A DNA stretch of 64,000 bases, taken from NCBI RefSeq assembly GCF_026914265.1, contig NC_069135.1:12741560-12805559 (forward strand). The letters are read 5' to 3'. The notes below the pieces were generated by a model. That model had not been told where the DNA came from, searched no databases, and worked only from the letters and a program-made list of their open reading frames with translations. The stretch is from Mya arenaria. Its lineage: Eukaryota > Mollusca > Bivalvia > Myida > Myidae. Positions 17,990 to 64,000 of this stretch are shown in pieces. Position 1 is the first letter of the stretch. The number at the start of each line of letters is the position of its first letter. Both the position numbers and the translations under genes were made by a program.

Positions 17990-20204
17990 TTATTTTTCTA
18001 CAGAGACTTCTTCAGAGCAATCAAAGTATCCTGCATCTTTAAACTTCATGTACAAGTCTTCTTGCTCTCTTACGAGGAACGTCAGCGTCTTTTTCTTGTA
18101 GAAGTCGCCATACAACTGTATATTGTTAATTACATCAGCCAGAAGATGAGCCCTATCAGCTCCGAACCCCGGTGCTTCGAACTTAACATTGGTGAAATGC
18201 ACATGAAAATGGTAGTATGACGGCTGGTAATGGATGTAAACATTCAGTTTGCTGGCTGGAATGTCATAGGTGTCCTGAATAGCTTTCTGGAAAGTACATA
18301 TTTCAAGTCTAGTTATTCTTTGTGTACAGTCACAATAACATTCATTTTACACACAGAATATTTGCCACATACATTAAGAAATAAGTTCTTTTTTTCAACA
18401 AGAGCAAACTAAGAAGCTGCCAACAGTGATACCAATGCTATGATGAAATAATAAAATTATAATAGAATATATGGATCAAGAAATTTGAAACAACCCACCA
18501 GCCCTTTCTTGAGTATATTTTGCAGCAGCGGAAGGCTCCCTGTGTCCAGGTCTCGCAAAGACTTGATGTTATGTTTGTGGACAATTGCTACCAGGTACAG
18601 GGCACTTGTGTCTGTTCGGTCCCACTTCATGTCTGGCAGCAGGATGAACCCTGTGTCAGGGTCTGTGTCCTCATACACAATACGATCAGCCTCCTTCTTC
18701 TTCTCCAGTATGTTGTACACCCACTGAGGAAATAATTGTAATATGGTTTTGATTATTATCAATTCTTTGTTTTAGGGCTTTTGAACTCTACTAAAAAGTT
18801 TTAGAACTACTCTGGTTTCAAATGTATTTTTATATTTAAAAGCATGCAAAAAAGACCTTATTTGTTCTGAAATATGATATGTATGAAACTGCATTGGAAT
18901 GAAATCAAGCTTATTCCCCACTCATTAACATATTTAACAATACAATTCCATACTAAAGGTGCTAAGAAATACCCTTTATATCATAATCTAACCTTATAAC
19001 AACAACCTGTATTTTTTTAGATTTAACAAGGCCTAAGGTTGCTCCCATCATTACATATTGTTCATGTTTCCCACCTGTATGCTGAACTGTTTGCTTGTGA
19101 TGAGTGGCAGTGTCACCTGTTCATATAGACTGGGTGTCTCATGCACAATGTATCGCTCCTGGTCTGTGTACTTCTGCACATGTTTCTCTGTGGCAGGGTG
19201 AATCACCACCGCCTTCACAGCTGTAAAAAAGATATATTTAATTTCTTATCATCATTCAAAGTATACAGTAAATATAGTACCATCTTATTAATATTACCCT
19301 GAGTCCACTCGCAAAATACAGATGTAAACATTTATCATAATTTAAGACATATTTATTATTATAACTTTAACATTTATAACACAGCTTCCTCTGCCCATAC
19401 GGTACCTGATAACATGCAACTGCTATTTAACTTTCAAAACAGTTTGTAACGCATATTGTCAAATTGGAATACACATATTCTTGTTAATTTGCACCAGTCA
19501 ATTCAATCACGGCCCCCCCCCCAGGTTCGAGGGTATACCGGGGAAATGGGCAGTGTTTTAACCTTCCAGGTGGCCCCGCAGTGTTGGGTGAATGCAGTGC
19601 ATGGTTTTGTCTTTGCTCCAAAAAAAGCGGGGAATGGGCCTTACCTAGGGTCCCTGGGGTGCGGGGTGCATTTGGCGGGGATTTTACCAGCAGTTCATCC
19701 CCGTAGGACGGCGATTTTACCCGGGCTTGGCCGGACCAAAAGTCAAAGACCCCGCTATGCCCAGAACTTTTTCTTGGGGGGGGGGGGGGGCGGGCGGTTG
19801 TTACAACTGACTCATGCATTGCACCTGTGACGATTAGATAAATTGATCAATACTTTGTGAAAATATCAGACATAACTACAAGTAGCGTATAGTTAAAACT
19901 GTTTACCATTCTCTACTTTCGGTGGATATGCATCATAAGTTCCATAAATGTCATTCTTCAATGTATTCTCTAAACCTGTTTCCTCCGTAAAGTAGTTGCT
20001 AACATTACTGAGGTTGAATGGTTTTCTTTCCAACAAAACAATGGCGTCTTTCCCGTCCAGCTCCCCGTGGATGACAGCCGTTTTGCATCGCGAGTTTTCA
20101 CTGATCACGCTCTTCACTTTAAAACCCTCAAAACTGTCCAATATACGAAGGCGGTCGTCGTCCTGCCGATCACCAGATTCCAGTTTTCTTTTCTTTCTGT
20201 CCAT
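17990..20204 (-). CDS. DCPS: DCPS, scavenger m7GpppX decapping pyrophosphatase, four exons
   Basis: Hydrolyses the cap left after 3'-5' mRNA decay, releasing m7GMP. Exons on the minus strand: 20204-19907, 19220-19075, 18723-18499 and 18286-17990. Borders are AG/GT and phases fit, giving 321 residues (human 337). The N-terminal domain holds [20 protein letters not shown] and [12 protein letters not shown]. The C-terminal HIT domain begins near [19 protein letters not shown] and carries the triad H249-F-H251-V-H253 in [11 protein letters not shown]251 matches the catalytic His277 of human. GFEAPG-type residues and RAHLLADVI follow. The last eight residues are unlike the human tail. Intron 1 holds a reversed SINE body. 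Exons 3-4 with their intron are copied at 29912-30800. Confidence 0.96.
19484..19795 (-). mobile_element. SINE body fragment in DCPS intron 1
   Basis: Read on the minus strand it matches the body of the 9708-10300 SINE through phrases GGTAAAATCCCC, CACCCCAGGGACCCTAGGTA and ATTCACCCA. The tRNA-like head is missing. A G-run of about 15 (19776-19790) marks one edge. Confidence 0.65.
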
Positions 20205-21510: not shown

Positions 21511-22394
21511 AAAGTGATCTTTCAATCTGAGTCATTAGTTCTGTATGTAAAAAGAAGGAAGGTACATTTTCTCTACGTTTTGACTGACCGATGATATGTT
21601 TCAGTTTCAGATATCCACGGCTATGCATTATCGTACGCCAGAGCGACGATGCTATGCGTAAAACCGATTTGTTTTATCATTTTCAAAACATACTTGAATA
21701 TTTACATTCGCACTTGAGTTCCTGTACGATAAAACATGCCGCGGTCTATCTTTCGTGACCTGTGTAGGCTGAGTTTACCAAGAAAGACCTGGGTCATGAA
21801 AACAATACAAATAAAAAAGTTTTGATAATATTTTTGATAAGCGCGAAAATTATTATTTAACCAAAATATTTCCAGAAGTAATAAAAAGGAGAAAATGTTG
21901 ATGTAAGGAGTGATTATTTCGTGCGTTTATAGGTTTCCAAACCGCGGCTGCTTAAATGAGATTCAATAAATAAAGGGTTTTTAAAACAGTAAATATTGGT
22001 AACAGATATAAAAGAGGTGTTTTAAAGCAAACTTTGTGTTTACCATCTATATTCTATAACAATGGTGACAAATTCAGGACTATATATCGAAATTGAAGAG
22101 TTTACCCTGTTGACGGTGAACCAAATATCATACGATATAAGACATTGCCATGACACCATCTAAGAGCTTGAAAAACTTGACTATAAAAGCCTAAGCCCTT
22201 GTCTGTTGTATTCGACAGTTGTCAAAATACGATTTAACATCAGTATGTGATGTCCATTGCTTATGAAAAAGTAATCACCACAAAGTATGGGTGAAAGCCT
22301 CAGAAAGACGGCACTTAATGTGCGCGGCAATTTAGGCCTTTCCACATCTCAATGACAAGTTGCAGACATCGAAAATAAAAAGACTTTTCAGGTA

Positions 22395-25306
22395 GATCAA
22401 TCAGACTTATGTCGATTTCACGAACTTCGTACAGTAGCCGACATCCAAGTTGCTGGAAAATACACGTTATCGTAATATCGTTGGATATTGAAAAACCTGA
22501 TTGGCAAACAAATTCGCGAAGCATATGTGACACGACATATAGTCTGGGATATCAGCGTTCTCAACCCTTTCGTGGAATCATGCATGCCACACAGCGTGAA
22601 AACCAGTGTGTGAGCCTGAACACAGCGGTGGAAACCAGTGTGTGAACCTGAACACAGCGGTGGAAACCAGTGTGTGAGCCTAAACACAGCGGTGGAAACC
22701 AGTGTGTGAACCTGAACACAGCGGTGGAAACCAGTGTGTGAACCTGAACACAGCGGTGGAAACCAGTGTGTGAGCCTGAACACAGCGGTGGAAACCAGTG
22801 TGTGAGCCTGAACACAGCGGTGGAAACCAGTGTGTGAACCTGAACACAGCGGTGGAAACCAGTGTGTGAACCTGATCACAGCGGTGGAAACCAGTGTGTG
22901 AACCTGAACACAGCGGTGGAAACCAGTGTGTGAGCCTGAACACAGCGTGGAAACCAGTGTGTGAACCTGAACACAGCGTGAAAACCAGTGTGTGAACCTG
23001 AACACAGCGGTGGAAACCAGTGTGTGAACCTGAACACAGCGTGAAACCAGTGTGTGAACCTGAACACAGCGGTGGAAACCAGTGTGTGAGCCTGAACACA
23101 GCGTGGAAACCAGTGTGTGAACCTGAACACAGCGGTGGAAACCAGTGTGTGAACCTGAACACAGCGGTGAAAACCAGTGTGTGAGCCTGAACACAGCGGT
23201 GGAAACCAGTGTGTGAGCCTGAACACAGCGGTGGAAACCAGTGTGTGAGCCTGAACACAGCGGTGGAAACCAGTGTGTGAACCTGAACACAGCGGTGGAA
23301 ACCAGTGTGTGAACCTGAACACAGCGTGGAAACCATAGTGTGAGCCTGGACACAGCGGTGGAAACCAGTGTGTGAACCTGAACACAGCGTGGAAACCAGT
23401 GTGTGAACCTGGACACAGCGGTGGAAACCAGTGTGTGAGCCTGAACACAGCGCGGAAACCAGTGTGTGAACCTGAACACAGCGGTGGAAACCAGTGTGTG
23501 AGCCTGAACACAGCGGTGGAAACCAGTGTGTGAACCTGAACACAGCGGTGGAAACCAGTGTGTGAGCCTGAACACAGCGGTGGAAACCAGTGTGTGAACC
23601 TGAACACAGCGGTGGAAACCAGTGTGTGAGCCTGAACACAGCGGTGGAAACCAGTGTGTGAGCCTAAACACAGCGGTGGAAACCAGTGTGTGAGCCTGAA
23701 CACAGCGGTGGAAACCAGTGTGTGAACCTGAACACAGCGGTGGAAACCAGTGTGTGAGCCTGAACACAGCGGTGGAAACCAGTGTGTGAGCCTAAACACA
23801 GCGGTGGAAACCATTGTGTGAGCCTAAACACAGCGGTGGAAACCAGTGTGTGAACCTGAACACAGCGGTGGAAACCAGTGTGTGAGCCTGAACACAGCGG
23901 TGGAAACCAGTGTGTGAACCTGAACACAGCGGTGGAAACCAGTGTGTGAGCCTGAACACAGCGGTGGAAACCAGTGTGTGAGCCTGAACACAGCGGTGGA
24001 AACCAGTGTGTGAGCCTGAACACAGCGGTGGAAACCAGTGTGTGAGCCTGAACACAGCGGTGGAAACCAGTGTGTGAGCCTAAACACAGCGGTGGAAACC
24101 AGTGTGTGAGCCTGAACACAGCGGTGGAAACCAGTGTGTGAGCCTGAACACAGCGGTGGAAACCAGTGTGTGAGCCTGAACACAGCGGTGGAAACCAGTG
24201 TGTGAGCCTAAACACAGCGGTGGAAACCAGTGTGTGAGCCTAAACACAGCGGTGGAAACCAGTGTGTGAGCCTAAACACAGCGGTGGAAACCAGTGTGTG
24301 AGCCTAAACACAGCGGTGGAAACCAGTGTGTGAGCCTGAACACAGCGGTGGAAACCAGTGTGTGAGCCTGAACACAGCGGTGGAAACCAGTGTGTGAGCC
24401 TGAACACAGCGGTGGAAACCAGTGTGTGAACCTGAACACAGCGGTGGAAACCAGTGTGTGAACCTGAACACAGCGGTGGAAACCAGTGTGTGAGCCTGAA
24501 CACAGCGTCGGAAACCAGTGTGTGAGCCTGAACACAGCGTCGGAAACCAGTGTGTGAGCCTGAACACAGCGTCGGAAACCAGTGTGTGAGCCTGAACACA
24601 GCGGTGGAAACCAGTGTGTGAGCCTGAACACAGCGTCGGAAACCAGTGTGTGAGCCTGAACACAGCGGTGGAAACCAGTGTGTGAGCCTGAACACAGCGG
24701 TGGAAACCAGTGTGTGAGCCTGAACACAGCGGTGGAAACCAGTGTGTGAGCCTGAACACAGCGGTGGAAACCAGTGTGTGAGCCTGAACACAGCGGTGGA
24801 AACCAGTGTGTGAGCCTGAACACAGCGTTGGAAACCAGTGTGTGAGCCTGAACACAGCGGTGGAAACCAGTGTGTGAGCCTGAACACAGCGGTGGAAACC
24901 AGTGTGTGAGCCTGAACACAGCGTTGGAAACCAGTGTGTGAACCTGAACACAGCGGTGGAAACCAGTGTGTGAGCCTGAACACAGCGGTGGAAACCAGTG
25001 TGTGAGCCTGAACACAGCGGTGGAAACCAGTGTGTGAACCTGAACACAGCGGTGGAAACCAGTGTGTGAACCTGAACACAGCGTGGAAACCAGTGTGTGA
25101 ACCTGAACACAGCGGTGGAAATGTACACCATTAACGCTGCAATACGTTGTAATAGGGTTGGGTCGTTGCTGGAGGGGAAGATGGCCGACTTTATTGTAAT
25201 AGATGGAGACATCTTCCACATACACCCGTCAAACATATGTGGAGCTAAGGGGTTAATAACCTTTGTCAAAGGAAAGGTAGTAAAAAAGTTTAAATTGTTT
25301 AAATAA
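22395..25306 (+). pseudogene. YtcJ-like amidohydrolase pseudogene (copy A), split by a minisatellite
   Basis: Left part, 22395-22595, shows the end of the metal-dependent hydrolase barrel in more than one frame (DQSDLCRFHELRTVADIQVAG; then FRGIMHATQ). Right part, 25115-25306, reads YTINAAIRC, then VGSLLEGKMADFIVIDGD, then LITFVKGKVVKK and a stop. This is the standard C-terminus of amidohydrolase family 3 (YtcJ type: INAA, IGSLE.GK.ADFVVL, V.G..V). The 32-bp array at 22596-25114 lies exactly between, inside what was coding sequence. Frames disagree between the parts, and the N-terminal metal-binding half is absent, so it cannot make an enzyme. Confidence 0.8.
22596..25114 (+). repeat. 32-bp minisatellite, about 79 units
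   Basis: The unit is about 32 bp: GAAACCAGTGTGTGAGCC then TGAACACAGCGGTG. Variants cluster: GAACC for GAGCC, TAAACAC for TGAACAC, GCGTCGG at 24507-24630, GCGTTGG at about 24827 and 24923, and units shortened by 1-2 bp (GCGTGG, GCGTGAAAA) mainly between 22945 and 23450 and at the ends. There are no spacers, so it is not a CRISPR. The unit has no stop in the minus frames, and 32 is not a multiple of 3, so long minus-strand frames with a 32-residue period appear. These are by-products. Confidence 0.97.
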
Positions 25307-25732
25307 CATCAATAATCGCAATAAGAGCTTATTTTAAGTCTGATTTAGTAACATCGAACGCCATGTTGCCTCACATTGAACACTTGGACAAAGCAAATAT
25401 AGATTAATACATGAAGTATTCGTGACTTTACCCACATGATTAAGTTACTAACAAATGAAAATATCGAGCACGGATATAGGCAATCAAAATAGATTTTGAC
25501 AGTATAACGATAACGAAGATTAGAAACATGATACGTATACAAAACGTTTTTAGTTATCAAAGGTATGATGTACTTTTTGTAATTGGATTTTTCAAAATGG
25601 GGCGTACGTGTAATGTATTGATCCCAAAAGCAATAAATCAAACATGTACGAAAAAGTTAGATGCAAAATTCGTATATTTTATTGCAATTCCATGTGCGGT
25701 TATTGATACTATTCAGCTGTAGTAAGCTGAGA

Positions 25733-26668
25733 ATGTGCGATTCTATTGACATAAGTGAGTGGATTTACAAATACAGAAGTAACATTGTACGATTCCTGGT
25801 GTCGCTAAGGGATGTCGGGAAAGAAACGTGTTACGAAATCCAAGATATTCTTGACCCAAACCGAACTAGGGACAAGAAAAGGCAGCACCTCGCTGTGGCA
25901 TTGGTTTGTTCGAGAGAAATTGAAAACGAGAATCATTCCATTCTAGAAGAATTCACTAAGTATCTTCATTCGGGTGTCTTTCACATTGGTCACGATAGAT
26001 TGGTACAAAAGGACAGAATGGCTGTCGTCATGAACAGTACGAGAAGATTCCATTTTACCCATGGTGAATGTCGCATCTTTGACCCTCAAAGACATTTCCT
26101 TTATGAAATCATTGACGAAGGACATAGAAAAGCTGGTATAAACGAGTCTGTCAAACGGTCCAGTAAAACCATCTACGTGAACGATTCTGCTAAGGGGACA
26201 TTAGGACAAATGCATGCAAGTCTTAAAAAGACACACACGGCCCAAGACGGCTGTATACACCTTTATGTTTTATTTTCACACTATGTGCCATGTGACATTG
26301 ACTTCCACGAGTGTTCTTCCATACTTGACAAGTTTGTAAGTTCTGATAAACAAAATCTTATTATCGGATATGAGGCTGCTTTTGAATTTACAAACGAGAA
26401 ACGTTCTCTCGAAATTCTTGATCAAAACGAAAACATTTTCATTGTCAAGCCAAAAGCAATATTCAAAGAAATTCGTTCACAGATGGAAACTTTCTTCCAT
26501 TGCGCGAACCAAACTACATACAGAGAAGACGAGAAAAACAAAGAATATTTCAAGTCGAATGGTCTCATTAGTAAACGAAATAAATTATTTACGCAACCCG
26601 AAGCTAAAGTTGTTTCGAGGCGGAAGCGACATACGTTAAAGAGGAACTATTTTTATGATACAGTGTAA
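25733..26668 (+). CDS. Intronless 311-residue protein of unknown family, deaminase-like motifs (copy A)
   Basis: Open from ATG 25733 to TAA 26666-26668 without introns. An in-frame extension to 25661 has no support in copy B, so this start is preferred. Features by residue: HGE at 110-112 in RRFHFTHGECRIFD; a predicted beta strand then PC at 186-187 in HLYVLFSHYVPC; Cys194; basic tail SRRKRHTLKR. Zinc-dependent deaminases (AID/APOBEC/CDA fold) use H-x-E followed by P-C-x(n)-C; here the last spacing is six and the loop between motifs is long (about 73 residues). No signal peptide or membrane segment. It follows the dead amidohydrolase by about 430 bp on the same strand. The function is unproven; the fold proposal is inference from motifs only. 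Confidence 0.6.
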   Translation: MCDSIDISEWIYKYRSNIVRFLVSLRDVGKETCYEIQDILDPNRTRDKKRQHLAVALVCSREIENENHSILEEFTKYLHSGVFHIGHDRLVQKDRMAVVMNSTRRFHFTHGECRIFDPQRHFLYEIIDEGHRKAGINESVKRSSKTIYVNDSAKGTLGQMHASLKKTHTAQDGCIHLYVLFSHYVPCDIDFHECSSILDKFVSSDKQNLIIGYEAAFEFTNEKRSLEILDQNENIFIVKPKAIFKEIRSQMETFFHCANQTTYREDEKNKEYFKSNGLISKRNKLFTQPEAKVVSRRKRHTLKRNYFYDTV

Positions 26669-29419: not shown

Positions 29420-29911
29420 AGGCTTGATTAATATTTTTCGTGCGTACATAGAGTAAGTACTCTCGTTCGCGATTTTGCATATTATACAAGAAGCCCTAGC
29501 GCGATTCCTGGATTCATAACATCGCGGGTCACGTGAGCGTTCATACTATATGAACACAGGGAAAATAAGAACCAGTCCTTAAATAAGTATATTTAATAAC
29601 TTAAGGTTTAAACATTAATTATTGGCAACACAAAATTATAGAACTATTAAAAGCAAACCTTCTGTTAACCATTAAAAAAATTAAATAACTGTTAATGGTG
29701 AACGCAATGAAATACTACTAAAATTGCTGGTAATATGGTACAGATATTGCCATGTCACCCTCTCCAGAGCTTGAAAACTTGACTATCAATGCCTTGTCTG
29801 ATGTCAGCTGTCAAAACACGGTATAACATCAGTTTGTGATGACCATTGCTACTGGAAAAGTAATCACCACAAGATATGGATGAATGCTCAGGAAGACGGA
29901 AAACTAAATGT
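29420..29911 (+). other. Leader part of duplication copy B
   Basis: Matches 33590-34040 of copy C almost word for word (GTAAGTACTCTCGTTCGCGA, ACATCGCGGGTCACGTGAGC). It stops abruptly at 29911, where the DCPS-derived segment begins. Confidence 0.75.
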
Positions 29912-30800
29912 CAGAGCAATCAAAGTATCCTGCATCTTTAAACTTCATGTACAAGTCTTCTTGCTCTCTTACGAGGAACGTCAGCGTCTTTTTCTTGTAG
30001 AAGTCGCCATACAACTGTATATTGTTAATTACATCAGCCAGAAGATGAGCCCTATCAGCTCCGAACCCCGGTGCTTCGAACTTAACATTGGTGAAATGCA
30101 CATGAAAATGGTAGTATGACGGCTGGTAATGGATGTAAACATTCAGTTTGCTGGCTGGAATGTCATAGGTGTCCTGAATAGCTTTCTGGAAAGTACATAT
30201 TTCAAGTATAGTTATTCTTTGTGTACAGTCACAATAACATTCATTTTACACGCAGAATATTTGCCACATACATTAAGAAATAAGTTCTTTTTTCAACAAG
30301 AGCAAACTAAGAAGCTGCCAACAGTGATACCAATGCTATGATGAAATAATAAAATTAATAGAATATATGGATCAAGAAATTTGAAACAACCCACCAGCCC
30401 TTTCATGAGTATATTTTGCAGCAGCGGAAGGCTCCCTGTGTCCAGGTCTCGCAAAGACTTGATGTCATGTTTGTGGACAATTGCTACCAGGTACAGAGCA
30501 CTTGTGTCTGTTGGGTCCCAATTCATGTCTGGCAGCAGGATGAACCCTGTGTCAGGGTCTGTGTCCTCATACACAATACGATCAGCCTCCTTCTTCTTCT
30601 CCAGTATGTTGTACACCCACTGAGGAAATAATTGTAATATGTTTTTGATTATTATCAATTCTTTGTTTTAGGGCTTTTGAACTCTACTAAAAAGTTTTAG
30701 AACTACTCTGGTTTCAAATGTATTTTTATATTTAAAAGCATGCAAAAAGACATTATTTGTTCTGAAATATGATATGTATGAAACTGCACTGGAATGAAAT
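29912..30800 (-). pseudogene. Truncated DCPS duplicate (exons 3 and 4 only)
   Basis: Matches 18012-18903 with about a dozen differences by eye, including the intron and both exon borders. Exon 3 is at 30619-30395, exon 4 from 30182 down to 29912. Exons 1-2 are absent. The last residues of exon 4 are replaced at the junction by an accidental stop after DCSDI. Exon 3 carries a few replacements (Lys to Asn, Arg to Pro, Asn to Asp, Lys to Met). The HIT triad is still encoded. Without the N-terminal domain and a promoter it is unlikely to function. Confidence 0.93.
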
Positions 30801-31002
30801 CCAATGTCTGTTGTCTTCGACAGTTGTCAAAATACGATTTAACATCAGTTTGTGATGTCCATTGCTTATGAAAAAGTAATCACCACAAAGTATGGGTGAA
30901 AGCCTCAGAAAGACGGCACTTAATGTGCGCGGCAATTTAGGCCTTTCCACATCTCAATGACAAGTTGCAGACATCGAAAATAAAAAGACTTTTTAGGTAG
31001 AT

Positions 31003-31427
31003 CAATCAGACTTATGTCGATTTCACGAACTTCGTACAGTAGCCGACTTCCAAGTTGCTGGAAAGTACACGTAATCGAAATATCGTTGGATATTGAAAAA
31101 CCTGATTGGCAAACAAATTCGCGAAGCATATGTGACACGACATATAGTCTGGGATATCAGCGTTCTCAACCCTTTCGTGGAATCATGCATGCCACACAGC
31201 GTGGAAGCCAGTGTGTGAACCTGAACACAACGGTGGAAATGTAAACTAGTAACGCTGCAATACGTTGCAATAGGGTTGGGTCGTTGCTGGAGGGGAAGAT
31301 GGCCGACTTTATTGTAATAGATCGAGACATCTTCCACATACACCCGTCAAACATATGTGGAGCTAAGGGGTTAATAACCTTTGTCAAAGGAAAGGTAGTA
31401 AAAAAGTTTAAATTGTTTAAATAACAT
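31003..31427 (+). pseudogene. YtcJ-like amidohydrolase pseudogene (copy B)
   Basis: Same segment as copy A but without the array: DQSDLCRF at the left, FRGIMHATQRGSQCVNLNT in the middle, then a stop shortly after (VEM then TAA), then NAAIRC, GSLLEGKMADFIVIDRD and LITFVKGKVVKK. It holds one 32-bp unit flanked by GTGGAA at 31201-31206 and 31233-31238, the apparent seed of the copy A array. Dead. Confidence 0.8.
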
Positions 31428-31784
31428 CAATAATCGCAATTGGACAAAGCAAATATAGATTAATACATGAACTATTTCTAACATAGTATTCGAACATGCA
31501 TGCATTCGTGACTTTACCCACATGATTAAGTTACTAACAAATTAAAATATCGACCACCGATATAAGCAATTAAAATAGATTTTACAATGACATTATAACG
31601 ATAACGAAGAATAGAAACATGATACGTCTACAAAACGTTTTAAGTTATCAAAGGTATGGTGTACCTTTTGTAATTGGATTACAAAATGGGGCGTACGTGT
31701 AATGTATTGATCCCAAAAGCAATAAATCAAACATGTACGAAAAATGTGCGGTTATTGATAATATTCAGCTGTAATTAGCTGACA

Positions 31785-32720
31785 ATGTGCGATTCTATTG
31801 ACATAAGTGAGTGGATTTACAAATACAGAAGTAACATTGTACGATTCCTGGTGTCGCTAAGGGATGTCGGGAAAGAAACGTGTTACGAAATCCAAGATAT
31901 TCTTGACCCAAACAGAACTAGGGACAAGAAAAGGCAGTATCTCGCTGTGGCATTGGTTTGTACGAGAGAAATTGAAAACGAAAATCATTCCATTCTAAAA
32001 GATTTCACTAAGTATCTTCATTCGGGTGTCTTTCACATTGGTCATGATAGATTGGTGCAAAAGGACAGAATGGCTGTCGTCATGAACAGAACGAGAAGAT
32101 TCCATTTTACCCATGGTGAATGTCGCATCTTTGATCCTCATAGACATTTCCTTTATGAAATCATTGACGAAGGACATAAAAAAGCTGGTATAAACGAGTC
32201 TCTCAAACGTGCCAGTAAAACCATCTACGTGAACGATTCTGCAAAAGGGACATTAGGACAAATGCATGCAAGTCTTAAAAAGACACACACAGCCCAAAAC
32301 GGCTGTAAACACCTGTATGTTTTATATTCACACTATGTGCCATGTGACATTGACTTCCACGAGTGTTCTTCCATACTTGACAAGTTTGTAAGTTCTGATA
32401 AACGAAATGTTATTATCGGATATGAGGCTGCTTTTCAATTTACAAACGAGAAACGTTCTCTCGAAATTCTTGATAAAAACGAAAACATTTTCATTGTCAA
32501 GTCAAAAGCAATATTCAAAGAAATCGATTCACAGATAGAAACTTTCTTCCAATGCACGAACCAAACTACATACAGAGAAGACGAGAAAAACAAAGAATAT
32601 TTCAAGTCGAATGGTCTCATTAGTAAACGAAATAAATTGTTTACGCAACCCGAAGCTAAAGTTCTTTCGAGGCGGAAGCGACATACGTTAAAGAGGAACT
32701 ACTTTTATGATACAGTTTAA
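31785..32720 (+). CDS. Intronless 311-residue protein of unknown family (copy B)
   Basis: Same length and stop position as the copy A ORF, with about 22 residue differences by hand count and roughly a dozen silent changes. Both HGE (110-112) and PC...C (186-187, 194) are kept, as is the basic tail. Keeping two full-length frames with no insertion or deletion, while the neighbouring amidohydrolase has decayed, argues for selection or very recent duplication. The amino-acid change is fairly high relative to silent change, so constraint may be loose or selection diversifying. Promoter unknown. See copy A for the deaminase-fold hypothesis. Confidence 0.6.
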   Translation: MCDSIDISEWIYKYRSNIVRFLVSLRDVGKETCYEIQDILDPNRTRDKKRQYLAVALVCTREIENENHSILKDFTKYLHSGVFHIGHDRLVQKDRMAVVMNRTRRFHFTHGECRIFDPHRHFLYEIIDEGHKKAGINESLKRASKTIYVNDSAKGTLGQMHASLKKTHTAQNGCKHLYVLYSHYVPCDIDFHECSSILDKFVSSDKRNVIIGYEAAFQFTNEKRSLEILDKNENIFIVKSKAIFKEIDSQIETFFQCTNQTTYREDEKNKEYFKSNGLISKRNKLFTQPEAKVLSRRKRHTLKRNYFYDTV

Positions 32721-33005: not shown

Positions 33006-34289
33006 TGTATGATCAGATGTATTTGTAGGTAAAAAAGTATAAAATAATTGTTTACCATTAAAATCGGAGAGAAGCAGGTATATGATATATAGACTTCATT
33101 CATATGAATAATTAAATAGTTAATGCATAAGTACCTGTGTACTTGTAAGTCATATAAAGTGACCCTTTAATCTGAGTCATTAGTTCGTAATCGGATGTAA
33201 ATAGAAGGAAGGTACATAGTTATTGTTCTCTACCTTTTGAATTGCTGACCTAGTTTCAGTGTCAGATACCGTAATACAATCTCGTTTACCAGATCAATGA
33301 TACAATGCATACAACATCTAATATTATCATTATCAAACCTCTGATACATGAGATATAACCCTAATATTTACATACGCACTTGATATTCTGTACGATAAAA
33401 CATAAACCGGTCGCCATTTCGAGACCTCTGTAGGCGGAATTTAGCGAGAAATACCTGGGCCATGCATATGTAAAACACATATGAAAAAGTCTTGATATTT
33501 TTTTTGATAAACGCGAAAATATTACCATCAAAATCATTATTTCAAGAAAAAAGAAAGAAAGAAAAAAAGAAAATATTTATGTACGACTTGATTAGTATGT
33601 TCGTGCGTACATAGAGTAAGTACTCTCGTTCGCGATTTTGCATATTATCCAAGAAGCCCTAGCGCGATTCCTGGATTCATAACATCGCGGGTCACGTGAG
33701 CGTTCATACTATATGAAAACAAGAACCAAGGTTAAGGTTAAAACATTAATTATTGGCAACAAAAAATAAAGAGCTATTAAAAGCAAACCTTATGTTAACC
33801 ATTAAAATACATAAATAACTGTTAATGGTGAACGCAATGAAATACTACTAAAAGTGCTGGTAATTTGGTACAGATATTGCCATGACACCCTCTCCAGAGC
33901 TTGAAAACTTGACTAACAATGCCTTGTCTGATGTCAGCTGTCAAAACACGGTATAACATCAGTTTGTGATGACCATTGAACTGGAAAAGTAATCATCACA
34001 AGATATGGATGAAAGCTAAGGAAGATGGAAAACTAAATGTGAGAGCCATTTAGGCCTCCGAATCTCAATGACAAGTTTCAGATATCGGAAATGACTCTTC
34101 AGTGACAATCCAGATGAATTGCTTAAAATTTCACAAGCTTTATTCAGATGGTCTTCTCGATCGATTCGACAACTGCTGCCGTTGAACCCTACTTGATTAA
34201 TTATCACTTTCAAAGTTTTAACAGAGGAATGAATTAATTTTGCCATAGAAGACTCACGCAGTGCATGCAACAATCAATAAAATAAGTTT

Positions 34290-34765
34290 GTAAAGGCTTT
34301 GACTTTCATGAACACACAATTGGCAATGGAGCTGCCAAGGAACTACGCAATGCTCTTAAAGAATCAAAACGCGTCCAAGATCACATGAGACAATGCATAG
34401 ACTTACACCTGTTGAAATAGTACATCAATCAGACATATGACGATTTAGCGAACTTGGTGTAGTAGCCGTCTACCAAATTGCTGGAAAATGCACTTTTCCG
34501 AGGTATCTTGCAGATAATGATAAACTGATTGGCAAAAGAAATGCGTGATAACGGTTTCTAATGCGGTCTGTCTTTGAAACAGGAGCATATGTGACACTAA
34601 GTAGTGACCGGGATATCAGCGATCTCAACTCCTATCTTGGGATCATGCAGACCACACAGCAAGGAGGCCAGTATGTGGACTTGTAAGCGATCGAAACGCT
34701 GTGTACGTGATGCGCCATGGGTTGGGTCGTCGGAGGCGGGGAAGAAGGCCGACTTGTTGTAAAGC
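34290..34765 (+). pseudogene. YtcJ-like amidohydrolase pseudogene (copy C)
   Basis: The longest surviving stretch of the amidohydrolase: GFDFHEHTIGNGAAKELRNA, then RFSELGVVAVYQIAG, then VFETGAYVTLSSDRDISDLN followed by SYLGIMQTTQQGGQYVDL and a stop. These match the YtcJ order H-x-H.IGD.A / D..RFAELGV.AS.Q / L..AGV.LA.GSDWP. Near 34760 it is joined by a deletion directly to the last third of the 311-codon ORF. Confidence 0.75.
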
Positions 34766-51800: not shown

Positions 51801-53751
51801 GTTTGTGACTAGATATATAAATTAATTGAAATATATATATATAAGGCTTTTAAGTTGGAAGATAATTTACATTGTGTGATCTTTTATTTTATGCTATGAT
51901 AATCAGTATTACCAGTATGATGTATTTTATAATTACCTGTGGAGTATCTTTCAACTTCACACTGGCCAAATACAGTATTCATTCCTGTTCTTTTATAATG
52001 AAAAAAACACTGTGATGTTTGATTTAAATTGAATTGTCAGCATCAATAATGTTGTGATTGATTTCTGATCATTCTTGTACCAACCCAAGGTTCTACGACT
52101 ACAGTTCCCTACACAAACACGTAAAGTCTGTGCACATGGGCTACCGCCCATTCCCGTGCCCGCACTGTGAACGCAGGTTTCCTGAGCGTAAAGGCCTTGC
52201 AGAACACATTCGCGTACACACGGGTGAGAGACCATTCAAGTGCACGGTAAGGTTACATACAGATTATTTATTATATCATCGTTGTTTAGTATGTTTACAT
52301 GTGCATTGTTTTGACAAATGATTTACAGAAGTTTGTAGAAAATTATAGGTGAGATATAATTTACAACTCACTGTGGCTCTGCCACTTGTCAAAATATGAC
52401 TGGAAATAATATCATACTTTAATACTGGTAAACAAACAATTATTCCCTTTTTAGCCATACCTTTTCATGTTGATTTAAAATTATTTATAGACAAAATTTA
52501 CTTATGATTATCAAGTATGATTACTTAGCAGTCATGAAACGGCTTGTTAAAGAAATTTCGATGAGCACTCCCCAAATGCAACACTGAAGAGTGCAGATAT
52601 AGGTTTGAAATAATTGGCTTGTGATAGGTCCTCAGACTTCATCATGATCGTATTTTCCTGTCAGGACTGTGACAGGGCATTCAAGCGGAAGAGTGAGCTG
52701 AACTTTCACGTGAGGAAGGCCCATACCAACGAGCAGAAATACTTCTGTTCCTTCTGTGGCAAAGGTACAAAAAGTCACTTAGCTAAATAAATGATTTATA
52801 TGCATTACTCCTAAATATGTTTCATTGAAGAAGCTGGTTGAATGGTACATTAAAAATAAGTCAAAATCGTTAAAAAATCACATCAGGAAGCTAAACCTCA
52901 TCCTATCTCACATAGAAACAGAATGATTGTGAAAGTCAAAACACAATATTGTTTAAAACATCTGCTACTATGATCTGTAATCATTCCCTTGCTTTTAAGC
53001 TATTTATAACATCCATATCTAACACTTTGGTGTGTTTGAAGCATAATGTTTAAATCATTCCTACATCTCAAAAAAACTAGCTATATGCTTTTATACCTAT
53101 TTGTGTATGTTTTCAGGGTTTCTGCGGCTGGCGCTGTTGCGCATGCACGTAGAGGACCGTCACGGGAGTCATGATCACCGGTGTAAAATGTGCCGGAAGA
53201 ACTTCCAGAACGAGGTTCAGCTCCAGGACCACCGTCTCCGCAAACACCCACACACCCCAGCCCAGCGTAAAATCTGTGACAAGTGTGGCCACTCCTTCTA
53301 CAACACAAACAAGCTCAATCGTCACCTGAAGAGCAAGACAAACTGTGCGGAGAACTCCTACTACTCATGCGGGGTGTACTCCTGCAGGATCTGCATGGCC
53401 AAGTTTGACAACGAGGATGATCGTAGCAGTCACCTGAAGGAGCAGCACCCGGAGGAGATAAAGAAGAAGAGCTACCCATGTAATGTTTGTGGAAAGACTC
53501 TGGGTCGCAGCCAGGCGTTGAAACTACACATGAAGATCCACTACCAGATCCGGGACTACCAGTGCTCCATGTGCTCTTCGACGTTCGTACAGAAGCACCA
53601 TCTCCTGCAGCATATGCGCACGCACACCGGGGAGAAACCGTACCAGTGCCACATCTGCCTGCGCTCCTTCGCACAGAGTGCAACACTCTACAGCCATATG
53701 AAGCATCATGATGAGAAACTCCCAAAACTGCCTTCAGATAATGTAACATGA
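48873..53751 (+). CDS. C2H2 zinc-finger protein with about 19 fingers, five coding exons
   Basis: Likely DNA-binding nuclear regulator. Coding exons: 48873-49980, 50313-51630, 52090-52246, 52665-52764 and 53117-53751. Borders are AG/GT and phases fit, giving 3318 nt, 1105 residues. The start at ATG 48873 ([11 protein letters not shown]) is chosen because an acceptor-like AG lies at about 48803 and the ATG context is good; an in-frame ATG at 48768 is upstream of that acceptor. An acidic and Ser/Lys-rich N-terminus (to about 230) precedes fingers 1-5 (about 235-369), fingers 6-7 (to about 425), a long low-complexity acidic linker with basic patches (about 430-740), then fingers 8-19. One finger ends in Cys ([12 protein letters not shown]). 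Three introns cut through fingers 10, 12 and 13. HTGE linkers occur only in places. No ortholog is recognised. The stop lies inside the first unit of a minisatellite. Confidence 0.9.
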
Positions 53752-54265
53752 TCTTAAGAAACGCCAAAAACTGCCATTCAGATAATGTTACATGATCTTG
53801 AGAAACTCACAAAACTGCCTTCAGATAATGTTACAGGATCTTGAGAAACTCCCAAAAATGCCCTTTAGATAATGTTACAGGATCTTGAGAAACTCACAAA
53901 ACTGCCTTCAGATAATGTTACATGATCTTGAGAAACTCCCAAAACTGCCCTTCAGATAATGTTACATGATCTTGAGAACTCCCCTTCAGATAATTGTACA
54001 TGATCTTGAGAAACTCCTAAAACTGCCCTTCAGATAATGTTACATGATCTTGAGAAACTCGCAAAACTGCCCTTCAGATAATGTTACATGATCTTGAGAA
54101 ACTCCCAAAACTGCCCTTCAGATAATGTTATATGATCATGAGAAACTCCCAAAACTGCCCTTCAGATAATGTTACATGACCTTGAGAAACTCCTAAAACT
54201 GCCCTTCAGATAATGTTTCATGATCTTGAGAAACTCCCTAAACTGCCTTCAGATAATGTTATTTG
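53709..54265 (+). repeat. ~44-bp minisatellite grown from the end of the zinc-finger gene
   Basis: Thirteen units with GAGAAACTCCCAAAACTGCC then TTCAGATAATGTTACATGAT. Unit 1 is the coding sequence for the last residues ([12 protein letters not shown]) and the stop. One unit, near 53970, has a ~10-bp deletion. The array continues through the 3' UTR. Confidence 0.95.
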
Positions 54266-56436: not shown

Positions 56437-57435
56437 AAAACACTTGAAGTTAATAATTTATACATGAAGCCTGCCTACATATCACTTAAAATATTGTTGT
56501 ACAACTCTTTAGTCTTTAAACTGGTGTAATAATTCATTAACTATATTCGGTATTTAAAATACTGTATTTAAATTCAAATCAATGTTTTAATCAATTTTTA
56601 TGTTTTATCAATTTTGAAAATGATGGTTTGCCTGTATCTAGTCATGAAAAAGAGTTTGTATTATTGTTGTCACCTGTGATATATTGTCAGTTTTCTTTTT
56701 TGTCAGAAATCATTCATGTGTCTTAGAAGGGAGTTGGCTGTTGTTTTTAATGAGAAATTCTTTTCTTATATGGCATAGATTTTATTTTCCTAAATACCAA
56801 GATTTTTTTAATGTTTTACTCCATATTTTGAAAAAAATACAGATGGAAATTATGAACCAGTATTTATTACAAGTTTAAAACTAGAACATAAAACTTATGA
56901 AATAAGTAGTGAAGCATATAATGTTTTCAAATAGGATCAAGTCAATGCATAACAATAATATGTTACAAAATTAATGACGTGGCTTAGACTTCTGAGAGTT
57001 GTTTAAGAATGTTTAACTTCACATTTATTTGGAAGACGTGTTATGAGAATACAAATGAAATTACAAAATTACAAAAATTGGTAACAGAATGATTAAGATG
57101 TCATTATGAAAACTGTAAACAGTTAGGTTTTGTTCAGATGAATTGATGCCATACTGTAGAATTGACTGTAGCATATAAAATGGTACCATTATAAGAGAGC
57201 ATAAATATATATTTTATAAGATAAGTGTTTTTACATGTATTATACATTCATGTTTGTTACTTATGTTTATTGCATTATTTATTCAGTGTCTCACATGTGT
57301 TTTTGTAAGCACTTTGAGACATAATTTTGTAGGAATTTTTTCACAAAATGAAATGAATTATTTAAAAAAAAATGAAAATAATGATTTATACCAGAGCTTC
57401 ATCTTTATTTTAAGCATGAAAGCACAGACATCACA
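56437..57435. other. AT-rich DNA without recognised features
   Basis: Nothing recognised on either strand. No poly-A signal of the zinc-finger gene could be assigned with confidence. Confidence 0.4.
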
Positions 57436-57997
57436 AATTTACCCAACTTTTATGTACAACAAAGCCAATATATGGCAAATTTACCCAACTTTTATGTACA
57501 ACAAAGCCAAAATATGGCAAATTTACCCAACTTTTATGTACAACAAAGCCAAAATATGGCAAATTTACTTAACTTTTATGTACAACAAAGCCAAAATATG
57601 GCAAATTTACTTAACTTTTATGTACAACAAAGCCAAAATATGGCAAATTTACCCAACTTTTATGTACAACAAAGCCAAAATATGGCAAATTTACCCAACT
57701 TTTATGTACAACAAAGCCAAAATATGGCAAATTTACTTAACTTTTATGTACAACAAAGCCAATATATGGCAAATTTACCCAACTTTTATGTACAACAAAG
57801 CCAATATATGGCAAATTTACCCAACTTTTATGTACAACAAAGCCAAAATATGGCAAATTTACCCAACTTTTATGTACAACAAAGCCAAAATATGGCAAAT
57901 TTACCCAACTTTTATGTACAACAAAGCCAAAATATGGCAAATTTACTTAACTTTTATGTACAACAAAGCCAATATATGGCAAATTTACCTAACTGTT
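57436..57997 (+). repeat. 42-bp minisatellite, 13 units plus a partial one
   Basis: The unit is TTTATGTACAACAAAGCC, then AAAATATGGCAAATTTACCC, then AACT, with CC/TT and AAAATATGG/AATATATGG variants. Period 42 = 14 codons keeps two plus frames and one minus frame open, which creates apparent proteins (IYPTFMYNKAKIWQ repeated). No splice or homology support for a gene. Confidence 0.95.
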
Positions 57998-58079
57998 ATG
58001 GGTCTGAGCAAGACTTCGACCAATCCGCAGTTCTCTAGTGATCGACAGGTCAAGTTAAAGCAATTTTAGTGTATTTCAA

Positions 58080-62528: not shown

Positions 62529-63455
62529 GTGGTGGGAACGTTCTACAAGCAGGTTGTCGCCTGTCGAGGTTTCTTCAAAGCTTTTAAAGCTTAACTAGCT
62601 TTAAAGGTTAATTTCATGAATCCAAATTCCTAAATGATTTTTTATGTTCTTAATAAACAAGTTGTTTATCGTGATTATTATCAAGAAAATCGTTTTATTT
62701 GTCTGGATCAAAATATTAAGTACTGGGTATCAAAACATAAACTATCCCTTATTATATTCACAATCCTCGATCTTTAGAGACCGAATATAATTGGAGATTA
62801 AGATTACACTGATTATCCTCTTTTGTGAAATGTATTTGAATCGTTATAATTTGATTCGGCATCTTGTTTTTCCCTGATTGTTAAATTCTGACGTGCATAT
62901 AAATGTCAAATTTCACAAGGACACCAAACCAACCTCAATGAATGCATTTGGTTGACTCTCCCAAACAAATGATACTTATACCTATATATTTCTCAAATTT
63001 TGCATCGGATCATCTGCAATAATTTTGATTTAAAAATATACAGCTGCTAAAGTAATTTAGTGTATTTAATGTTCGGTCTTAGGCCTCCGCTTATTGGATC
63101 GATGGACAGATTCACTTTTAAATATTTAGAAGGCCTGGCCACCAAAACTCCATTACACAGAAGATATATATCTTTTATTTTACTCCAAATATGAATAGCA
63201 CACGACCGCCAATGTCAGCCACAACACTGTCATTAAGTCATTAACCGGTTTATATCAGAGATCATTTAGATGGCAAGGCATCCGATAGGCATTTCGCGCT
63301 TAAGTTTCTTAAATCTAAAGTCAATCATACCTGAGTTATTGCCCTTGGCATTATTAAATGCAAAGCATATTTGTTTCCACTCCTGGTCACGTTTCTGTAA
63401 TTCTATAGGAATTTCTTTTGAAATGTACAAATTAGCCTTGTATAGGTATCGTGGC
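62529..63455. other. 3' flank of the potassium channel
   Basis: AT-rich. Around 63330-63400 are words of the bivalve core repeat type (GAGTTATTGCCCTTGGCATT). No gene recognised. Confidence 0.45.
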
Positions 63456-63459
63456 CTGT

Positions 63460-64000
63460 AAATGGACCGGGGTATTGCCAGTCCATCCTTCATACAACAT
63501 CAAGGCCTGTTTGTTGACATGGGTATCGCCAGTCCATCATTCCTACAAACGTCAAGGCCTGTATGTGGACATGGGTATCGCCAGTCCATCATTCCTACAA
63601 ACGTCAAGGCCTGTATGCGGACATGGGTATCGCCAGTCCATAATTCCTACAAACGTCAAGGCCTGTATGCGGTCATGGGTGTATGTAGAGATGGGTATCG
63701 CCAGTCCATCCTTCCTATAAACGTCAAGGCCTGTATGTGGACATGGGTATCGCCAGTCCATCATTCCTACAAACGCCAAGGCCTGTATGCGGTCATGGGT
63801 GTATGCGGACATGGGTATCGCCAGTCCATCATTCCTACAAACGTCAAGGCCTGTATGTGGACATGGGTATCGCCAGTCCATAATTCCTACAAACGTCAAG
63901 GCCTGTATGCGGTCATGGGTGTATGTAGAGATGGGTATCGCTAGTCCATCATTCCTACAAACGTCAATGCGTGTATGCGGACATGGGTATCGCCAGTCCA
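63460..64000 (+). repeat. 52-bp tandem array running off the window end
   Basis: The unit is GGGTATCGCCAGTCCATCAT, then TCCTACAAACGTCAAGGCCT, then GTATGTGGACAT. About ten units are seen; three carry an extra ~22 bp (GGTCATGGGTGTATG...). The array continues past 64000, so its length is unknown. Frames across it are by-products. Confidence 0.95.

Follow-up and report, generated by a model that had tools for sequence, protein, structure and literature searches.

A minisatellite in a decayed amidohydrolase gene copy of Mya arenaria and its one-unit relatives

Most minisatellites no longer have the sequence from which they grew. In the model of Haber & Louis, as cited in PMC6947457, a minisatellite is born where single-copy DNA contains a unit flanked by short direct repeats, and the direct repeats of such birth models are put at 5–10 bp (PMC6947457) or 5–20 bp (PMC3389668). 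In the slipped-strand model of Taylor & Breden, a chief hallmark is that the last unit is incomplete (PMC3389668). The array described in this report lies in a window of 64,000 nt from the Mya arenaria genome (assembly GCF_026914265.1, contig NC_069135.1), in the first of three decayed copies of an amidohydrolase gene (copies A, B and C) whose full-length relative is located on C3. It is a minisatellite in the usual sense of head-to-tail units of roughly 10–100 bp, with 79 units of 30–32 bp. A single-copy ancestor bounded by direct repeats is represented by both C3 and copy B, each of which has one unit and a 13/14-bp word pair. Set beside the Haber & Louis type, the copy A unit likewise began as single-copy DNA between short direct repeats and was later amplified head to tail. 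It differs in that the source is a decayed enzyme gene with three one-unit relatives still present in the genome, and in that the words are 13/14 bp long and unequal by one base, which marks the junctions. The array also resembles the Taylor & Breden type in ending with an incomplete unit of 14 bp (25107–25120).

The copy A array and its place in the genome

The array occupies positions 22589–25120 on the plus strand. Cut at CACAGCG, it resolves into 79 full units (consensus ACACAGCGGTGGAAACCAGTGTGTGARCCTRA) and the 14-bp partial unit, and the count of about 79 given in the first-pass annotation is thereby confirmed. TRF reports it as the dominant repeat of the window (22589–25121, period 32, 79.5 copies, 96 % matches, score 4597). 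By the unit cut, 70 of the 79 units are 32 bp long, eight are 31 bp and one is 30 bp. Unit 1 (22589–22619, plus strand) forms the left edge and is of the 31-bp, short-word form, with GTGAAA at the place of the first seed word. The right edge (25076–25120, plus strand) is made up of unit 79, also of 31 bp, and the partial unit, which reads ACACAGCGGTGGAA and is directly followed by ATGTACACC.

The Mya arenaria genome (1,216,080,610 bases in 18 contigs) was searched with a 25-base unit pattern, allowing up to 3 mismatches. All 70 forward matches fall inside the copy A array. Two reverse matches, with 3 mismatches each, are on C13, and the reversed pattern, used as a control, gave no match in the same search. 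A chance origin of the array is thus out of the question, and as far as the 25-base search shows, the unit is arrayed at one locus in the genome. Within the array no higher-order repeats are seen, at the level of non-overlapping identical blocks of at least five units.

The array has clean edges. On the left, the final 56 bases preceding it show 0 mismatches between A and B; on the right, the two copies differ at 4 of 55 bases from unit 79 through the edge. Copy A agrees with C3 at all four of these positions, and at the fourth (ACC/GCC) copy B agrees with C.

A variant map of the units bears out the reported clustering for individual variants, all of them chosen post hoc. The six GTCGG/GTTGG units all lie within units 61–74 (p 0.0003), AACC units are more frequent in the left half than in the right (21/40 vs 7/39, Fisher p 0.002), and short units lie to the left (one-sided p 0.012). 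Tests over the whole array are, however, weak: a Mantel test gives r 0.06 and p 0.096. Adjacency tests of the three variant features return p values of 0.12, 0.06 and 0.01, and the mean edit distance rises from 1.13 for adjacent units to 1.45 for units more than 40 apart. Local spreading of unit variants, as read from this map, is likely, though modest.

Other arrays are located in the same window. One, at 53712–54261 (44 bp × 12.8), has its left end within the final codons and the stop of a C2H2 zinc-finger ORF (53047–53751); it appears to be a further minisatellite that arose from the end of a coding sequence. The view that array and seed in one window are rare is weakened by this second array and was overstated, the birth model being already published. 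At 57434–58000 an array of 42 bp × 13.5 has a period that keeps the frame, and long ORFs remain in it. A compound array of 52, 68 and 120 bp begins at 63453 and runs to the window end at 64000.

The parent gene and its decayed copies

The flanks of the array, copy B and copy C all match the C3 gene, which lies on the minus strand of L003. This relative is intronless, with one frame of 555 codons from the ATG (560 codons when measured stop to stop) and a single TAA at codon 90. The array site falls in the 3′ part of this uninterrupted gene, and to call the source sequence an ‘exon’, as was done at first, is misleading. A 465-codon part of the C3 gene matches Amidohydro_3 (PF07969) with an E value of 1.6e-73 over profile positions 39–472 of 472. 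Against a cut-off of 29.7 bits, C3 scores 283.7, the copy A tail 40.0 and the copy B tail 36.3; among the matches listed for the genome, C3 is the sole nearly complete one and the A and B tails are the other two above the cut-off. No intact Amidohydro_3 member was found in the assembly among these matches. Measured against the family, A and B retain fragments only, and even C3 carries the in-frame TAA. The label ‘YtcJ-like’ we take to be the earlier reader’s own; the family is here assigned via Pfam. The best PDB match of the 465-residue part is 3icj (residues 162–439, E 4.8e-10), with the array site included. The peptide encoded by the site in C3 is TQRGHQSVDLNTAVEMYTINAA, which belongs to the C-terminal part of the Amidohydro_3 protein.

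All three decayed copies are on the plus strand. In copy A, a match to the C3 gene start (gene −73 to +56, 71.6 % identity) lies at 21985–22113. The left pseudogene flank (22130–22588) corresponds by blastn to parts of gene positions 608–1440, with deletions, and the right flank (25121–25398) covers the C-terminal end of the gene and continues past it. Copy B consists of a left flank (30805–31193), a one-unit site (31194–31238) and a right flank (31239–31438), the site being a 31-bp unit (31194–31224) followed by a 14-bp partial (31225–31238). Copy C (33827–34762) is a decayed version of gene positions 571–1573 and holds the site once, around 34653–34693. It is more decayed than B, with the second word eroded and a small deletion at the site. 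Stops are present within the fragments of all three copies.

A deletion of ~335 bp (gene 872–1208), a 35-base gap and two one-base gaps are common to A and B. From the pattern of these disablements A and B are sister copies, because the deletion and gaps are common to both and absent from C and C3. An intact reading frame is not found in the array-bearing copy A, given the deletions and one-base gaps that it shares with B. The gene having died before the A/B split, the array grew in an already dead copy. The proposal that it grew from coding-derived amidohydrolase sequence in a dead enzyme copy is therefore upheld, by the Amidohydro_3 flanks together with the shared deletions. As the site is present a single time in each of B, C and C3, the ancestral state was one unit.

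Seed words, unit length and the proposed origin

According to the first-pass annotation, copy B holds one unit between two GTGGAA words exactly 32 bp apart, and these words seeded the array. The words are indeed present at 31201 and 31233, and copy B does show the one-unit state. However, GTGGAA also occurs at 31177, which fits a longer word as the true boundary, and the first word of the array itself reads GTGAAA. The unit is bounded by an imperfect direct repeat of 13/14 bp, ACACAGCG(G)TGGAA, whose two forms, ACACAGCG-TGGAA and ACACAGCGGTGGAA, differ by one G. The 5′ halves of the words are 31 bp apart and the 3′ halves 32 bp apart. The order at the site is ACACAGCG-TGGAAGCCAGTGTGTGAACCTGA-ACACAACGGTGGAA-ATG in B and ACCCAGCG-TGGACACCAGTCTGTGGACCTGA-ACACAGCGGTGGAA-ATG in C3; the word pairs are ACACAGCG-TGGAA / ACACAACGGTGGAA and ACCCAGCG-TGGAC / ACACAGCGGTGGAA, respectively.

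Unit length changes mostly at the GCGGTGG/GCGTGG word, with the short word in 9 of the 79 units (1, 12, 13, 15, 17, 24, 26, 28 and 79). The mixture of 31- and 32-bp units arises because the seed words differ by one base. No unit comes closer to B or to C3 than units 12, 17 and 79, which are 1 edit from B and 4 edits from C3. Unit 79 being one of them, the right edge still holds founder-like sequence.

It is likely that the array was born by mispairing from the word pair in the dead Amidohydro_3 copy, and that it then lengthened by unequal exchange, conversion or slippage. A broken intronless copy of the gene would have inherited two near-identical words of 13/14 bases, ~31–32 bases apart. Mispairing of the words, by replication slippage or unequal exchange, would have duplicated the stretch from word to word. 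Two units would then have offered a longer homology, through which further unequal exchange, conversion or slippage could have led to the 79 units in A. The first word being one G short, an exchange to the left of the extra G would produce a 31-bp unit and one to the right of it a 32-bp unit. Slippage, the origin favoured at first, is indistinguishable from unequal exchange. The two would leave identical junctions, and nothing in the copy A array separates a slipped-strand birth of the kind set out in the cited parts of Taylor & Breden (PMC3389668) from unequal exchange. The array itself is most likely neutral.

Two candidate features of the site were rejected. The seed words of the parent gene are not exceptional in strength: equally good word pairs stand at 35 of the 1626 positions of the C3 gene, and of 60 codon shuffles 98 % contain one as good. 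The words permit the first duplication without predicting why this site grew. Hairpin-driven expansion is unsupported, the hairpin potential of the unit being non-significant. As DNA the unit folds at −4.6 kcal/mol (z −1.10), with 31 of 200 shuffles as good, and two units folded together give a z of −0.96. Folding is weaker at the sites in B (−2.8), C (−2.9) and C3 (−2.0).

Age of the array, alternative readings and significance

Divergence between A and B is uneven along the loci. Mismatches number 7/389 in the left flank, 5/200 in the near right flank and 57/1288 farther right. Compared with the far right by Fisher tests, the left and near right flanks together give p 0.011, the left flank alone p 0.015 and the near right flank alone p 0.26. 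A DcpS_C gene fragment on the minus strand (29911–30801) is near-identical to 18012–18906, with 10/891 mismatches (p 6e-6 in the same comparison). It adjoins copy B directly upstream, and at copy A it is found 3.3 kb upstream of the flank. These mismatch counts make it probable that recent copying between the loci took in the DcpS_C piece and the left flank and extended to the array site or through it. At copy B, 3.3 kb of the A locus is missing from the join between the DcpS_C segment and the amidohydrolase fragment.

This copying bears on the alternative in which the array predates the A/B split and B lost all but one unit by collapse, possibly during the copying itself, so that B is a relic. 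Arrays can lose units, A and B are sisters whose likeness is in part recent, and the copied stretch may span the array site. Substitutions specific to B in the polarised flanks (31065, 31073, 31244, 31247, 31249 and 31268) can be read in the same direction: by plain count, four of the six (31244, 31247, 31249 and 31268) lie within 30 bases to the right of the one-unit site, and a further B-specific change, AACGG, is in the seed. A collapse, however, needs an extra event, since C and C3 are single-unit and the state before the A/B split was thus one unit. Additionally, neither the GCC nor the AACGG of B occurs in any of the 79 copy A units. The GCC is indecisive here, as the base of B is shared with C and that of A with C3; parsimony is tied, and GCC was rejected as proof of an array-free history of B. 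Collapse in B is therefore less likely than growth in A, and taken by itself is an unlikely account of the locus. Growth of the array in A after the copying, the order that we infer, is simpler than its loss from B at the copying.

A functional reading turns on the sequence downstream. Separated from the array by 612 bp is an intact plus-strand ORF of 311 aa (25733–26668), which has no Pfam family at the default threshold, and a paralogous intact ORF, likewise of 311 aa and on the plus strand, lies downstream of copy B (31785–32720). As point values, dN/dS is 0.37 between the A and B ORFs, 0.35 between A and C3, and 0.48 between B and C3. These values below 1 and the intactness of the A ORF would be compatible with the array acting as a length-variable control element before the ORF at 25733, and the long open minus-strand frames, up to 457 aa, with the array being a coding repeat on that strand. 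But at B and C3, where the paralogous ORF is not preceded by this array, it is intact all the same, and the 32-bp period shifts the frame with each unit. The plus strand of the unit contains stops; the long minus-strand ORFs exist because the unit has no stops on that strand, and are not coding evidence. No evidence for a function of the array was found, and nothing links it to the ORF at 25733. A functional array in either sense is thus very unlikely, and that it is a new length-variable element altering expression of the downstream ORF, possibly of a deaminase-like family, between individuals is hardly less improbable.

The ORFs of the window pair form a family of ~250–310 aa with a relative at C3:83317093–83318019 and distant relatives on C9, C11 and C15. 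An array of 27 bp × ~97 (C3:83313341–83315948; L048 341–2948) lies near the C3 relative of the gene pair. The signature of zinc-dependent deaminases is HxE and PCxxC. In the ORF family HxE is invariant in 9/9 aligned sequences, and PC-x6-C, which is not the canonical PCxxC, is found in 8/9, with TC-x6-C in 1/9; this combination of motifs possibly recalls zinc deaminases. Among eight family proteins searched against Pfam none had a match above a family cut-off, with sub-cut-off matches only at E ≤1. A PDB search with the family profile found no relative at E ≤10, and one with a single ORF protein gave one match at E 0.79. The AlphaFold model of the downstream ORF, from a two-sequence alignment, has a mean pLDDT of 31.3 and is unusable.

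That the unit number is inflated or the array misplaced by the assembly is very improbable: long arrays are hard to assemble and this one is known from one assembly, but the window contains no N, some internal variants are spatially ordered and no second array copy was found genome-wide as a source of a misjoin, even if the exact count may be off.

The reading preferred here, birth from the word pair in a dead gene copy, leaves the accepted model of minisatellite birth unchanged. No titles on the copy A array were found in literature searches; the array fits the published birth models and is a new example of an understood form of repeat birth. Together with the array, the genome retains three one-unit relatives, a set of relatives that is in our judgement unusually complete, as well as an end unit that is founder-like, and the base difference between the seed words marks the junctions. 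The site is thus a neat test case for slippage versus unequal exchange, in sister species or in long reads from populations.
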